Shown piece by piece: positions 15,994-42,061 of a stretch of 64,000 nt of DNA. Both the position numbers and the translations under genes were made by a program. Source of the stretch: Halobacteriales archaeon QS_4_66_20. Its GTDB lineage: Archaea > Halobacteriota > Halobacteria > Halobacteriales > Haloarculaceae. Each line of letters begins with the position of its first letter. Positions within the stretch are counted from its first letter, which is position 1. The stretch covers positions 1-64,000 of the forward strand of contig PXRK01000002.1 in NCBI GenBank assembly GCA_003021015.1. The letters are read 5' to 3'. The notes under the pieces were generated by a model. The model had not been told where the DNA came from, searched no databases, and was given only the letters and a program-made list of their open reading frames with translations.

Positions 15994-16191
15994 TTAGACC
16001 CTCGCCCACGAGCGGTCTTTGCGCCGCTGGCGTTTCTCGGACGGCCGCTCTTTGCCGGTGTCCTGTTCGGCGAGCATGTCGCGAACAGCCGACCGGATCG
16101 CCTCGCTCCGGTTCGGGTACTCCCCGGTCTCGACTATCTGTTCGACCTCTTCGATCTGCTGCTTCGGAATCCGTAGTGTCACACGCTCCAT
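15994..16191 (-). CDS. cdrS: ribbon-helix-helix regulator CdrS
   Basis: A 65-residue RHH/CopG-type DNA-binding protein. The beta-strand [12 protein letters not shown] is followed by two helices ([28 protein letters not shown]) and a basic tail KRQRRKDRS. It corresponds to CdrS (cell division regulator, short), known in Halobacterium and Haloferax to be co-transcribed with ftsZ2 and to control division genes. It is the first gene of the cdrS-ftsZ2 operon and is preceded by a complex control region (16192-16421). Confidence 0.93.
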
Positions 16192-16421
16192 TGTTGTATT
16201 CCCCTGTGGGTAAGACAGGGGCGAGTTTACATCCCGCCCGTTCGTCTAACACAGCAGAACCGCACTACTGCGAGGTAGTCGTCACCTCGCTTCCTGCTGT
16301 GTAAGACTCTCGTCTTACGCACGAATTACAACAGACCCCTGGTTAATAAAAGTACCGGTGGTGCGTAAGACAACGATCCGTTTACCAGCTTAAACACGCT
16401 CTACCTCGCGTTTGCGGGCAA
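16192..16421 (-). promoter_or_regulatory. cdrS-ftsZ2 control region with GTCTTAC boxes
   Basis: On the minus strand the TATA box is TTTTATTAA (16342-16350). Four exact copies of GTCTTAC/GTAAGAC occur at 16210-16216, 16301-16307, 16312-16318 and 16365-16371, with a variant GTCTAAC at 16244-16250. GTCTTACGCAC (16312-16322) and GTGCGTAAGAC (16361-16371) form a perfect inverted repeat around the TATA box. GTCTAACACAGCAG (16244-16257) pairs with CTGCTGTGTAAGAC (16294-16307) around an inner stem. CCCCTGT and ACAGGGG form a hairpin (16201-16221) ten bases before the cdrS start. CdrL is the likely binder. Confidence 0.75.
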
Positions 16422-17015
16422 TCAGGGTTGGTCGAGAACGTCGGCTGCCGGGGTGCGCCGGCCGCAGCCGGGACAGAACGACCAGTCCGAACGGATCTCG
16501 TCCCCGCACTCGCAGAACACGCGTCGCGCAGATTTCTCCCCACAGTTCGGACAGTAAACGTGGGACGGCGAGAGGATTTCGCCGCACTGTGTACACGTCT
16601 TACGTTCGGCTTCGTCGGCGTTTTCGTCCGCCTCGGCAGATGTCTTACTCTCCCCGGGCCCGTGTGACACATCGTTTGTCGGCGCGTGAGACGCCTCCGA
16701 GTCGGCGTTTACACTGGCCCCGACTGCGTCGGACTGTTCGGCCATACCGCCATCAAGCGTGATGTTTACGTTGACGTCCTGTGGCTGGCGCGGCGTAAAC
16801 GAGCCGTCCAGGCGCTCGGCGATGAGCGCGTCGATCCGGTCGGTGACGAGCGCGTCGAGGCTGTCCTCGGTTGGATCGGGCTCGGTGGCCGCCGGGGTCG
16901 AGTGATTGTCGAGGTACGCGCGCAGCGCGTCCCGCATGATCTCGCTTTTCGAGGCGTCGAACTCCTCGATCCGCTTGATCAGCTCCTCGTCAGCGCGGAA
17001 CGTGATCTTGCTCAT
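16422..17015 (-). CDS. cdrL: ribbon-helix-helix zinc-ribbon regulator CdrL
   Basis: A 197-residue regulator. The N-terminal RHH domain is MSKITFRADEELIKRIEEF with SKSEIMRDALRAYL. A low-complexity acidic linker follows, and the C-terminus is a double zinc ribbon: CTQCG, CPNCG, CECGD and CPGCG. It corresponds to CdrL (cell division regulator, long), known to control the cdrS-ftsZ2 promoter. I prefer the ATG at 17015 to the one at 17042, because a TATA-like GAAATAGG lies about 30 bases before 17015. Two GTCTGAC boxes precede that TATA, which suggests self-regulation. Confidence 0.9.
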   Translation of the reverse strand: MSKITFRADEELIKRIEEFDASKSEIMRDALRAYLDNHSTPAATEPDPTEDSLDALVTDRIDALIAERLDGSFTPRQPQDVNVNITLDGGMAEQSDAVGASVNADSEASHAPTNDVSHGPGESKTSAEADENADEAERKTCTQCGEILSPSHVYCPNCGEKSARRVFCECGDEIRSDWSFCPGCGRRTPAADVLDQP

Positions 17016-17064
17016 CGACTCGTCATACAGGTTGTCACCCATCCTATTTCAATCTTCCCTGGAT

Positions 17065-17082
17065 GTCTGACAGGGGTCTGAC
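17065..17082 (-). promoter_or_regulatory. paired GTCTGAC boxes upstream of cdrL
   Basis: GTCTGAC occurs at 17065-17071 and 17076-17082, eleven bases apart, that is one helical turn. They lie just upstream of the TATA-like sequence of cdrL. They resemble the GTCTTAC boxes of cdrS-ftsZ2 and the inverted GTCAGAC/GTCTGAC pair before ftsZ1. Confidence 0.6.
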
Positions 17083-17085
17083 TCA

Positions 17086-17194
17086 TAGTGATTGTTGCGA
17101 GTCTTTACCGCTGGAACGTCACAATTTGTGGTCTTCAGCCCGCGGGACAACCGTTCCTGTGACGTGGTCACGAAAATAATCGCAACAATCACTA
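17086..17194. mobile_element. short inverted-repeat element, type A (diverged core)
   Basis: 109 bp from TAGTGATTGTTGCGAG to CGCAACAATCACTA, flanked on both sides by TCA (17083-17085 and 17195-17197). The terminal repeats match the type A copies at 20637 and 40589; most of the centre has diverged. It lies between cdrL and tRNA-Tyr. Confidence 0.8.
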
Positions 17195-17246
17195 TCAGGG
17201 CCAATGCATAATGGTTAAGTCCGCAAGCCGGCCTACAGGGAGACGC

Positions 17247-17320
17247 CCGCCCTTAGCTCAGACTGGTAGAGCAGTCGACTGTAGATCGACTTGTCCCCCG
17301 TTCAAATCGGGGAGGGCGGA
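17247..17320 (+). tRNA. tRNA-Tyr (anticodon GTA)
   Basis: A complete cloverleaf. The acceptor stem is CCGCCCT paired with AGGGCGG plus discriminator A. The D arm is GCTCAGACTGGTAGAGC. The anticodon stem GTCGA/TCGAC encloses the loop CTGTAGA with anticodon GTA. The T arm is CCCCG TTCAAAT CGGGG. No intron is seen. CCA is not encoded. Its 3' half and flank are duplicated 131 bases downstream. Confidence 0.95.
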
Positions 17321-17477
17321 CTTTTGCTGCGAACGACAGTGAGCAGGCAAACGTCTCACGACCCGATTTGAGCAGACGAGTCACAGCCCGGAACGGCGCG
17401 AAGCGCCGCACGCCCGGACTGTCTCGGCGAGTTCAAATCAGGGAGGGCGGATTTTTGCTGCGAACGACAGTGAGCAG
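17300..17477 (+). repeat. direct repeat of the tRNA-Tyr 3' end (possible att scar)
   Basis: The 47 bases 17300-17346, starting GTTCAAATCGGGGAGGGCGG and running past the tRNA end, recur at 17431-17477 with two mismatches. The 84 bases between the copies hold no gene. A tRNA 3' end copied downstream is the usual attL/attR footprint of an integrase-borne element, here with almost all its DNA gone. Confidence 0.65.
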
Positions 17478-20612: not shown

Positions 20613-20636
20613 CTCCCCGCAGTGCGGACGGCTCAT

Positions 20637-20744
20637 AGTGATTGTTCTGAGTCGTTACCGCTGTCGACCCATCAGACTCCGGTGTCAGCCCGTGACACTC
20701 CCGAAAATGCGATGGGACTCCGAAAATAATCACAACAATCACTA
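20637..20744 (+). mobile_element. short inverted-repeat element, type A
   Basis: 108 bp from TAGTGATTGTTCTGAG to TAATCACAACAATCACTA, flanked by TCA at 20634-20636 and 20745-20747. The right-hand TCA is, on the minus strand, the TGA stop of the adjacent HTH gene. Confidence 0.85.
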
Positions 20745-20975
20745 TCAGACGTGGACCGGGATCCACCAGACCCTGCTTCGTCCCCCGACTTTCTTGCTCT
20801 CGAGTTCGGTCTGCTCCTCGAGCATGTGGAGCTTGTTCAGCGCGGTCCGCCGCGAACAGCCGAGTTCGTCGGCGATCTCGCTAGCAGTGAGCGGCTCGGC
20901 GTAATCCTCGCGCGATTCGAACACCGCCGTGACGTCTTCGAGCGCGAACTCGGTGTCCCTTCCCTGGTTCCCCAT
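20745..20975 (-). CDS. winged helix-turn-helix DNA-binding protein
   Basis: A 76-residue protein formed by one HTH domain: LTASEIADELGCSRRTALNKLHMLEEQ near residues 29-55, then a wing ELESKKVGGRSRVWWIPVHV that ends the protein. It resembles the small MarR/ArsR-like or phage-type wHTH regulators common in haloarchaea. The stop coincides with the target duplication of the inverted-repeat element. It precedes the pilus-like operon on the same strand, at that operon's 3' end, so it need not regulate it. Confidence 0.75.
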   Translation of the reverse strand: MGNQGRDTEFALEDVTAVFESREDYAEPLTASEIADELGCSRRTALNKLHMLEEQTELESKKVGGRSRVWWIPVHV

Positions 20976-39196: not shown

Positions 39197-40588
39197 ATGC
39201 TCGGAATTCTCGTTTCACGTGCGGACGAGGCATCGGTCCACATCGGCGAGCAGTTGCTCGACGTCGCGGGGTGGCACCAGCGCGAGGACGACAGCCTGCC
39301 GGACGCCGCCGGCGGTGGCACGGTCTACGAGCGCGAGGGGGTCCAGCTCCGGGAGTTCGAGGACCTGCACATCTCCCTCGACCGCCCGGCCGCGGCGTTT
39401 GACGACCCCGACCTGCTCGTGTTCGCCTCCAAGCACTCCGGGGAGACCGGGCGGCTGCTGACGGCCCACCACACCGGTAACTTCGGCCCCGCCGACCACG
39501 GCGGCGCGGACAACGCCCTCGCGCAAGCCTGCCCGAATGCGCACGCCCGGGTACTCGACGCGCTCGCGGCGCACGCGCCAGAGGGGTACGACGTCGGCAT
39601 GGAGTGCACCCACCACGGCCCGACCGACGTCGGCGTCCCCTCGATGTTCGTCGAGGTCGGCAGCAGCGACGCCGAGTGGGCCGACCCCGCCGCGTCGGAG
39701 GCGGTCGCGCGGGCGATCCTCGACCTCGAGGGCGTCCCGCCCCACCGCGAGCCCGAGGACGGCGACGACTGGAACCGGCGACAGCTCGTCGGGGTCGGCG
39801 GCGGCCACTACGCGCCGCGGTTCGAGCGCGTCGCACGGGAGACGGACTGGGCGTTCGGCCACGTCGCCGCCGACTGGGGGCTGGACGCGCTGGGTGACCT
39901 CGACGCGCCAGCGGGCCAGGGCGTCCTTCGGGAGGCGTTCGAGGCGAGTCGCGCGGCGTACGCGCTCGTCGACGGCGACCGGCCGGCCGTCGAGGCGGCG
40001 CTCGCGGACCTCGACTGCCGGGTCGTCACCGAGACGTGGGTCCGGGAGACCGACGGCGTCGCCCTGCCGCTGGTTCGCCGGCTCGAACGCGAGGTCGAAA
40101 CCGTCGACGACGGACTGCGGTTCGGCGAGCGGGCAGCCGACGTGGCTGGCGGCAGTACTGTCGACGCCGACGACACCGACCTCGCCGTCGTCGACCTCCC
40201 CGCTGAACTCCTGGACGAGGCGCGGGGGATCGACCGCGAGGCGACCTACGACGCGCTCGTCGGGACGACGGTCGCGTTCGACACCGACCAGGGTGGGACG
40301 CGGCCCGCCGGCACCGTCGTCCTCGAATCCGAGGGCGACCGCGAGCGCGTCGTCGACCGGCTGCTCGCCGTCCTCCGGGAGCGCTACGACAGCGTCGAGC
40401 GCGACGGCGACGCCGTCGTCGCCCGCCAGGAGACGTTCGACCCCGAGAAAGCCCGGACGCTCGGCGTCCCCGAAGGACCGACGTTTGGCCGCCTCGCTGA
40501 CGGCGAAACTGTCGAGGTTGACGGGCGAACGATTCCGCCCGAGACTGTCCGGGAAACCCGGGAACGGCGGTTTTCGCTCCAGGAGTGA
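39197..40588 (+). CDS. dtdA: D-aminoacyl-tRNA deacylase (archaeal DtdA)
   Basis: A 463-residue DTD2-type deacylase that removes D-amino acids from mischarged tRNA. Conserved segments are MLGILVSRADEASVHI, LLVFASKHSGETGRLLTAHH near residue 75, GMECTHHGPTDVGVPSMFVE near 135 and VGVGGGHYAPRF near 198. Beyond the roughly 270-residue catalytic core is a haloarchaeal C-terminal extension. That extension ends GVPEGPTFGRLADGETVEVD, a phrase recalling RNase Z-type C-termini. The TGA stop is the left target duplication of a type A element. Confidence 0.93.
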   Translation: MLGILVSRADEASVHIGEQLLDVAGWHQREDDSLPDAAGGGTVYEREGVQLREFEDLHISLDRPAAAFDDPDLLVFASKHSGETGRLLTAHHTGNFGPADHGGADNALAQACPNAHARVLDALAAHAPEGYDVGMECTHHGPTDVGVPSMFVEVGSSDAEWADPAASEAVARAILDLEGVPPHREPEDGDDWNRRQLVGVGGGHYAPRFERVARETDWAFGHVAADWGLDALGDLDAPAGQGVLREAFEASRAAYALVDGDRPAVEAALADLDCRVVTETWVRETDGVALPLVRRLEREVETVDDGLRFGERAADVAGGSTVDADDTDLAVVDLPAELLDEARGIDREATYDALVGTTVAFDTDQGGTRPAGTVVLESEGDRERVVDRLLAVLRERYDSVERDGDAVVARQETFDPEKARTLGVPEGPTFGRLADGETVEVDGRTIPPETVRETRERRFSLQE

Positions 40589-40697
40589 TAGTGATTGTTG
40601 TGAGTCTTTACCACTGTCGACCCATCAGACGCCGGTGTCAGCCCGTGACACTCCCGAGAATTCGATGCGACTCCGAAAATAACCACAACAATCACTA
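40589..40697 (+). mobile_element. short inverted-repeat element, type A
   Basis: 109 bp from TAGTGATTGTTGTGAG to CCACAACAATCACTA, flanked by TGA at 40586-40588 (the dtdA stop) and TGA at 40698-40700. Same orientation as the copy at 20637 and highly similar to it. Confidence 0.88.
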
Positions 40698-40700
40698 TGA

Positions 40701-40832: not shown

Positions 40833-40852
40833 CGTCAGACGTCCGTCTGACG
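40833..40852. promoter_or_regulatory. perfect inverted repeat upstream of ftsZ1
   Basis: CGTCAGACG, two bases, then CGTCTGACG: a perfect 9-bp inverted repeat that ends ten bases before the ftsZ1 TATA box. Each arm contains GTCTGAC/GTCAGAC, the same heptamer found twice upstream of cdrL. A likely site for a dimeric regulator. Confidence 0.7.
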
Positions 40853-40897: not shown

Positions 40898-42061
40898 ATG
40901 GACTCGATTATCGACGACGCAATCGACGAGGCCGAGGAAGAGCGGGAGGAGGCCCGCGAGGAAGGCACACAGGGCGCCACCGGCGGGACCGGGACCGAGG
41001 AGCCGTCGACGTCGGGGCAGATGACCGACGAGGAGCTCGCGTCCGTCGTCAAAGATCTCGAAACGAAAATCACGGTCGTCGGCTGCGGAGGGGCCGGCGG
41101 CAACACGGTCACGCGGATGATGGAGGAGGGGATCCACGGGGCGAAACTGGTCGCGGCGAACACGGACGCCCAGCACCTCGCCGACGAGGTGACCGCGGAC
41201 ACGAAGATCCTCATCGGGCGCAAGCGGACCGGCGGCCGCGGCGCGGGGTCGGTCCCCAAGATCGGCGAGGAGGCCGCCCAGGAGAACATGGAGGACATCC
41301 AGCAGGCGATCGACGGCTCCGACATGGTGTTCGTCACGGCGGGGCTCGGCGGCGGGACCGGCACGGGCGCGGCGCCGGTCGTCGCACAGGCTGCCCAGGA
41401 CGCCGGCGCACTCACCATCTCGATCGTCACGATCCCGTTCACCGCCGAGGGCGAGCGACGGCGCGCCAACGCCGACGCCGGCCTCGAACGCCTGCGATCG
41501 GTGTCGGACACGGTGATCGTCGTCCCGAACGACCGCCTGCTCGACTACGCCCCCTCGATGCCGCTGCAGGACGCGTTCAAGATCTGCGACCGCGTCCTGA
41601 TGCGCTCGGTCAAGGGGATGACCGAACTGATCACCAAGCCCGGCCTCGTCAACGTCGACTTCGCCGACGTCCGGACGATCATGGAGAACGGCGGCGTCGC
41701 TATGATCGGCCTCGGCGAGTCCGACTCCGAGAACAAGGCCCAGGACTCGATCCGCTCCGCACTCCGGTCGCCGCTTTTGGACGTGGAGTTCGACGGTGCC
41801 AACTCCGCGCTGGTGAACGTCGTCGGCGGCCCCGATATGTCCATCGAGGAAGCAGAGGGCGTCGTCGAGGAGATCTACGACCGGATCGACCCCGACGCCC
41901 GCATCATCTGGGGCGCCTCCGTCAACCAGGAGTTCGAGGGCAAGATGGAGACGATGATCGTCGTCACGGGCGTCGAGAGCCCGCAGATCTACGGCAAGAG
42001 CGAAGCCGAGCAGGAGCGCGCCGCCAAGGAACTCGGCGACGACATCGACTACGTCGAATAA
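40898..42061 (+). CDS. ftsZ1: cell division GTPase FtsZ1
   Basis: A 387-residue FtsZ. It starts [19 protein letters not shown], as haloarchaeal FtsZ1 does. A disordered Gly/Thr/Glu linker follows, then [17 protein letters not shown] near residue 55. The tubulin signature [10 protein letters not shown] is near 150, and [16 protein letters not shown] (T7 region) near 255. The C-terminal tail ends DDIDYVE. FtsZ1 sets up the division ring that stabilises FtsZ2. The ftsZ1-secE-spt5 order is widely conserved in haloarchaea. An inverted repeat with GTCTGAC arms lies before the TATA box. Confidence 0.97.

Follow-up and report, generated by a model that had tools for sequence, protein, structure and literature searches.

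The boxes that precede cdrS are real and deeply conserved among haloarchaea, and two distinct elements had been merged under the single motif GTCTKAC. The explanation that we favour, and consider somewhat better than an even bet, has two parts: a CdrS operator at the promoters of cdrL and ftsZ1, and a separate promoter and leader element at cdrS. The control of archaeal cell division is poorly understood, and the analysis offers a precise CdrS box for ftsZ1 and cdrL.

The window (the whole stretch of 64,000 nucleotides that was analysed) carries the genes cdrL-cdrS-ftsZ2 in this order on the minus strand and ftsZ1 on the plus strand (40898..42061, ATG 40898). The cdrS coding region (15997..16191, minus strand, ATG 16191) encodes an RHH_1 domain and matches the NCBIfam CdrS equivalog, and that of cdrL (16425..17015, minus strand) encodes an RHH_1 domain, CdrL_M and a double zinc ribbon. 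When comparing haloarchaeal loci, we find that the conserved start of cdrL is the ATG at 17015 (MSKITF...), not 17042. CdrS was detected in all 194 genomes of Halobacteria. Among proteins with a solved structure, it is most closely related to ParD-like antitoxins and to NikR. In 86 of 90 loci, cdrL lies immediately upstream of cdrS on the same strand. CdrL was found in Halobacteria only, and the cdrS element has the same limit.

The GTCWGAC pair at ftsZ1 and cdrL

The first-pass annotation had pointed to two GTCTGAC boxes one helical turn apart ahead of the cdrL TATA box and to paired sites of this kind as suitable for ribbon-helix-helix (RHH) proteins. Both observations hold. The half-sites lie at 17065-17071 and 17076-17082, upstream of the TATA-like box TTGAAATA (17046..17053, minus strand), and their spacing of 11 bp fits RHH binding. 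Together they form a putative operator, GTCTGAC-N4-GTCTGAC (17065..17082), whose centre is about 49 bp before the predicted transcription start. A pattern search exposed a further site that the annotation had missed, the palindrome GTCAGACgtccGTCTGAC that lies 46 bp ahead of the ftsZ1 start codon (GTCAGAC-N4-GTCTGAC, 40834..40851). Its centre is about 50 bp before the predicted transcription start; both distances were reckoned from the TATA boxes.

The spacing of the two half-sites is conserved. Among ftsZ1 promoters from many families, and with up to two mismatches allowed, the half-sites are separated by 4 nt in 64 of 70, whereas any other spacing between 0 and 11 is found in at most 12 of 70. 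For cdrL, the pair at spacing 4 occurs in 46 of 86 promoters and other spacings occur in at most 10. In one genome family, whose named members we take to be Natrialbaceae, most of the cdrL promoters shown are without a GTCWGAC box. The two half-sites are arranged directly in some loci and inverted in others, as one would predict for a half-site, GTC-W-GAC, that is almost palindromic. The exact pair is present in 46 of 59 genomes, with a total of 96 sites, and seven of these are in the window's own genome; the control had no match in any of the 59.

The accessible text of the ChIP-seq study of CdrS in H. volcanii describes a symmetric motif and a site at -50 of ftsZ1 (PMC8406309). We compared part of its list of 18 targets, by gene product, to the pair sites of the sister species H. 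denitrificans, not H. volcanii itself, and found that the sites match entries of the list. The best sites of H. denitrificans are those at ftsZ1 and hisB, followed by those at genes for a signal-peptide protein and a PRC-domain-like protein; when two mismatches are allowed, 39 sites are found compared to 16 for the control. From the conservation at a fixed spacing at ftsZ1, together with the Haloferax sites at ChIP-type genes, we infer that GTCWGAC-N4-GTCWGAC is the CdrS operator. Two CdrS dimers would sit side by side on the pair, immediately ahead of the TATA box, where they would favour transcription, as has been reported for ftsZ1 in H. volcanii.

The operator at cdrL leads to a predicted link from CdrS to cdrL, and the cdrL promoter would thus be under the control of CdrS and not of CdrL. 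While the CdrS box is a sharper form of known biology, the predicted action of CdrS on cdrL is new but unproven. Both cdrS and cdrL are absent from the H. volcanii target list as far as it is given in the accessible text (PMC8406309), and the Haloferax cdrL promoter has a half-site only. Other pair sites in the window's own genome precede genes for a bactofilin-domain protein, DUF7123, DUF7139/7140, a small protein and a membrane protein (loci L005, L006, L010, L011 and L003), and these genes are candidate members of the CdrS regulon. Furthermore, in the own genome (L008:1501-1680) and in Haloferax (L259:1501-1680), a CdrS-type operator and a TATA box are followed by a stretch without an obvious gene. 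This stretch is possibly the RNA HVO_1885s, a reported CdrS target. The alignment was too weak to treat L008 and L259 as one such sRNA, and a search of the two loci against Rfam returned no families.

A MITE-like element with terminal inverted repeats (arms ATAGTGATTGTTG...) is found at 17082-17198, at about 20635-20745 and at about 40588-40698; one copy begins 2 bp from the cdrL operator and another is upstream of ftsZ1. The arms have 58 forward and 56 reverse matches in the genome, that is, dozens of copies. In the adjacent region (17247-17460), part of the 3' end of a tRNA gene (17247-17320) is repeated downstream, near 17430 (GTTCAAATC-GGGAGGGCGGA), which resembles the aftermath of an integration.

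The element in front of cdrS

Four exact GTCTTAC boxes and one variant had been noted before cdrS, and all of them are present on the minus strand. Box A (GTCTTAC, 16365..16371) is upstream of the cdrS TATA box TTTTATTA (16344..16351, minus strand). Box B (GTAAGAC, 16312..16318) coincides with the predicted start of transcription, 32 bp past the beginning of the TATA box; it is followed by box C (GTCTTAC, 16301..16307). Box D is the variant GTTAGAC, or GTCTAAC on the other strand (16244..16250), and box E (GTCTTAC, 16210..16216) ends 18 nt ahead of the cdrS ATG.

Comparing the promoters across haloarchaea confirmed that these boxes are conserved. The 230 bp before cdrS contain on average 4.42 copies of GTCTTAC/GTAAGAC in 90 loci, whereas the remainder of these loci has 0.08 per 230 bp and shuffled sequence has 0.02. 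The heptamers are nearly invariant among loci. In most loci, box A reads GTCTTAC, GTCATAC, GTCTGAC or similar and usually lies 13 bp before the TATA box, and the distance from the start of the TATA box to box B is 32 or 33 bp in 80 of the 81 loci measured; the B/C core is thus placed at the predicted transcription start of cdrS. Boxes B and C are separated by 4-6 nt (2 in locus L250). Box D is an exact GTAAGAC in 53 of 87 loci, and nearly all of these have it 46-50 nt downstream of box C. GTCTTAC is found within 45 nt of the cdrS ATG, as box E, in 87 of 90 loci, with 12-25 nt between its end and the start codon. Two of the boxes had also been described as an 11-bp inverted repeat around the TATA box. 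The repeat is present in the window (GTCTTACGCAC, 16312-16322; GTGCGTAAGAC, 16361-16371); however, the 4-bp extension that makes it 11 bp long is found in one of 87 loci and only the 7-bp box is conserved, and we thus ruled out the longer repeat as a functional unit.

Of the 194 genomes of Halobacteria, 187 have a single copy of the B/C core, GTAAGAC-N4-6-GTCTTAC, compared to 2 of 194 for a control pattern. A genome-wide search for paired boxes, which the annotation had suggested, did find pairs, but the GTCTTAC core and the GTCWGAC pair behave as different elements. The boxes of ftsZ1 and cdrL separate cleanly from those of cdrS, and we dropped GTCTKAC as one motif. The GTCTTAC/GTAAGAC set at cdrS would then be a control element of its own. 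Box A and the B/C pair, which flank the TATA box at constant distances, may act as promoter operators, and in Halobacterium they are probably bound by CdrL.

A proposed folded leader of cdrS-ftsZ2

As the predicted cdrS transcription start falls at box B, boxes B to E would also be part of the transcript. A study of H. volcanii includes a 5' UTR for cdrS, with coordinates given in a figure only. The proposed leader has the stems B:E and C:D and a hairpin between D and E, and in the window it is matched by our covariance model R1 at 16208..16320 (minus strand, 65.6 bits). With this model, the element is recovered from almost every one of 80 named loci and, under strict filters, from 30 of 33 Halobacteria compared to none of the 164 other genomes of the phylum sample.

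The leaders fold better than expected. The mean folding z-score of 83 leaders is -4.0 compared to -0.5 for controls from the cdrL coding region, and the window's own leader has a z-score of -5.4; the segments between the boxes also fold better than shuffled versions. Pair probabilities across 80 leaders are 0.84 for B:E and 0.69 for C:D, compared to 0.11 for B:C and 0.07 for D:E. In the window's own leader, box D is mismatched and the minimum-energy fold favours B:C. In a minority of loci (about 11 with a short leader or without a recognisable box), box D has degenerated or is absent, yet box C is retained.

The base pairs of the leader are backed by compensatory changes beyond those explained by relatedness. 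In the MAFFT alignments on which the covariation results are based, 90.1% of the paired cells can pair, compared to 84.1% after shuffling and at most 48% in slid versions. The arms beyond the boxes have a covariation score of 0.151 against 0.066 (reached in 0 of 500 shuffles; slid versions at most 0.074), and the extension of C:D alone has a score of 0.397 against 0.163. A count that takes the tree into account finds nine compensatory branches, where the null has a mean of 1.6 and a maximum of 5 and one slid control has 6. For the B:E pair 11-118, all five double changes are compensatory, and an unsupervised scan of pairs places all four nested pairs within the top 27. The excess of covariation is moderate. 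The heptamers themselves hardly vary and so contribute no covariation; in this they resemble sequence that is read by a protein. Together, the covariation is consistent with a three-way-junction RNA.

The conservation extends into the coding region. The first codons of cdrS (ATGGAGCGTGTGAC..., GAG CGT GTG ACA; 16178..16191, minus strand) are conserved at the nucleotide level, with an identity of 98-99% at the third positions of codons 2-5 across 90 loci. These codons may belong to the control by the leader or may represent a degenerate box (GTGTGAC). RNAalifold pairs box E with these codons; we set this pairing aside, as the partners are invariant and hence beyond covariation testing.

A search of the leader against Rfam found no family above the gathering threshold, with only the tRNA at 17247 being matched. 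No description of the once-per-genome element or of the leader fold was found in the searchable open-licence papers or in Rfam 15, and both thus appear to be undescribed so far.

In H. volcanii, 72% of transcripts are leaderless and structured leaders have been termed not typical (PMC4983044). In Hbt. salinarum, the cdrS-ftsZ2 mRNA increases during growth without a matching ribosome occupancy (PMC8303175). Given these observations, a nearly invariant folded leader on cdrS-ftsZ2 stands out and is a concrete candidate for control of the operon and for the unexplained gap between mRNA and ribosome occupancy. The structured leader, which ends some 18 nt short of the start codon, might tune the translation or the stability of the operon mRNA. 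More tentatively, the leader could switch between two folds (B:E with C:D and B:C with D:E) in response to CdrS, CdrL or another signal and so set the translation of division proteins; we regard this as possible rather than probable. It would then be an undescribed riboregulator, with one in nearly every haloarchaeon.

What reads the boxes

Could the boxes instead form a pure array of DNA operators? Boxes A, B/C, D and E and the copies in cdrL would all bind CdrL and/or CdrS, possibly with looping, and the RNA fold would be a by-product of their alternating orientation. We give this explanation a minor but appreciable chance. It accounts for the near-invariant heptamers, the rigid distances from box A over the TATA box to box B, and the published ChIP of CdrL. 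Furthermore, it accounts for boxes inside cdrL, of which two copies in the window had been missed: GTAAGAC at 16597..16603 (minus strand), which encodes RKT as CGT AAG ACN, and at 16642..16648 (minus strand), which encodes SKT in the variable linker, the site of a conserved in-frame box. This in-frame box, as CGTAAGAC, is found in the linker of 97 of 155 CdrL proteins, fixed 71-75 codons ahead of the stop in many species, and is preserved by a biased choice of codons: 107 of 109 RKT motifs encode the arginine as CGT, whereas CGT makes up 460 of the 2211 arginine codons overall there. However, an array does not explain that the arms outside the boxes covary and that the segments between them fold better than shuffles. 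A spacing of 4-6 between B and C, and of 2 in L250, is easier to reconcile with an RNA junction than with a rigid operator. The boxes also persist where cdrL is missing, and the H. volcanii ChIP of CdrS is without a peak at cdrS.

The original proposal was that CdrL recognises one and the same GTCTKAC box at the two promoters and represses or activates itself. In its favour, the boxes at the two promoters are related, CdrL is limited to Halobacteria like the cdrS element, and ChIP of CdrL in Hbt. salinarum has one reproducible site, upstream of cdrS-ftsZ2 (PMC7439475). A unique genomic site at this place is what we observe for the B/C core. The same ChIP has no site at cdrL's own promoter (PMC7439475), which argues against self-control; the cdrL promoter has GTCWGAC pairs, whereas cdrS has GTCTTAC/GTAAGAC. 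Moreover, the GTCWGAC pairs are found at ftsZ1 and at genes of the CdrS ChIP type. Control of cdrS-ftsZ2 by CdrL through the boxes fits the published site, but four genomes without CdrL at E<=0.001 (G138, G002, G183 and G026; loci L028, L030, L035 and L107) have retained boxes B, C and E without any change. These genomes are 94-99% complete and have no cdrL-like ORF upstream of cdrS. A pure CdrL site would be expected to be lost along with cdrL, which was not seen. The single-box proposal is thus improbable, and CdrL is excluded as the sole cause of the conservation. CdrL may bind the cdrS element, but the element is also maintained by something else, be it CdrS, an additional factor or the leader RNA itself. 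The four genomes appear to have lost cdrL while the leader boxes stayed, which makes them useful natural experiments that separate the role of the element from that of CdrL.

We consider it more doubtful still that the leader acts as RNA only, with B to E conserved for binding a ligand or a protein and the box before the TATA an unrelated promoter element. The covariation speaks for this, as does the retention in genomes without cdrL, including L030, which keeps B, C and E but has no recognisable box A. On the other hand, box A shares this heptamer in most cases and keeps a constant distance, the sequences are more invariant than pairing needs, and CdrL has been found to bind upstream of the operon. 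Finally, chance or composition can be dismissed: although the lone GTCTKAC heptamer is not enriched across the window (12 found compared to about 18 expected), its clustering is the unusual part, and neither the single core element per genome nor the pairs at ftsZ1 fit such an artefact.

When comparing the two-part explanation to known systems, we find that the GTCWGAC pair resembles the H. volcanii CdrS regulon as far as the accessible text describes it (PMC8406309), with a symmetric site at about -50 of ftsZ1 and with target gene types that were recovered in Haloferax; the likeness is one of symmetry and position. It differs in that the genome studied here has a full pair at cdrL, whereas cdrL and cdrS are off that list. 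The cdrS element resembles the CdrL control of Hbt. salinarum (PMC7439475) in its single genomic site upstream of cdrS-ftsZ2, whereas that study defined no box; here, the boxes outlast cdrL, and the predicted transcript includes most of them. Like riboswitches and autogenous leaders, the cdrS leader is a conserved, folded 5' region just before the start codon of an operon; unlike these structured cis-regulatory leaders, it is made of four copies of one heptamer and has no Rfam match. Operators of Arc-type RHH proteins consist of paired short half-sites one helical turn apart. The GTCWGAC pair has the same layout, with two short half-sites at a centre spacing of 11 bp, direct or inverted, but its half-site GTC-W-GAC is itself nearly palindromic. 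In Sulfolobales, the RHH cell-cycle regulator aCcr1 controls division genes. While it belongs to another archaeal group and is likened by protein family and role alone, it too is an RHH protein at division genes, and its NCBIfam model matches CdrL weakly, below the threshold.
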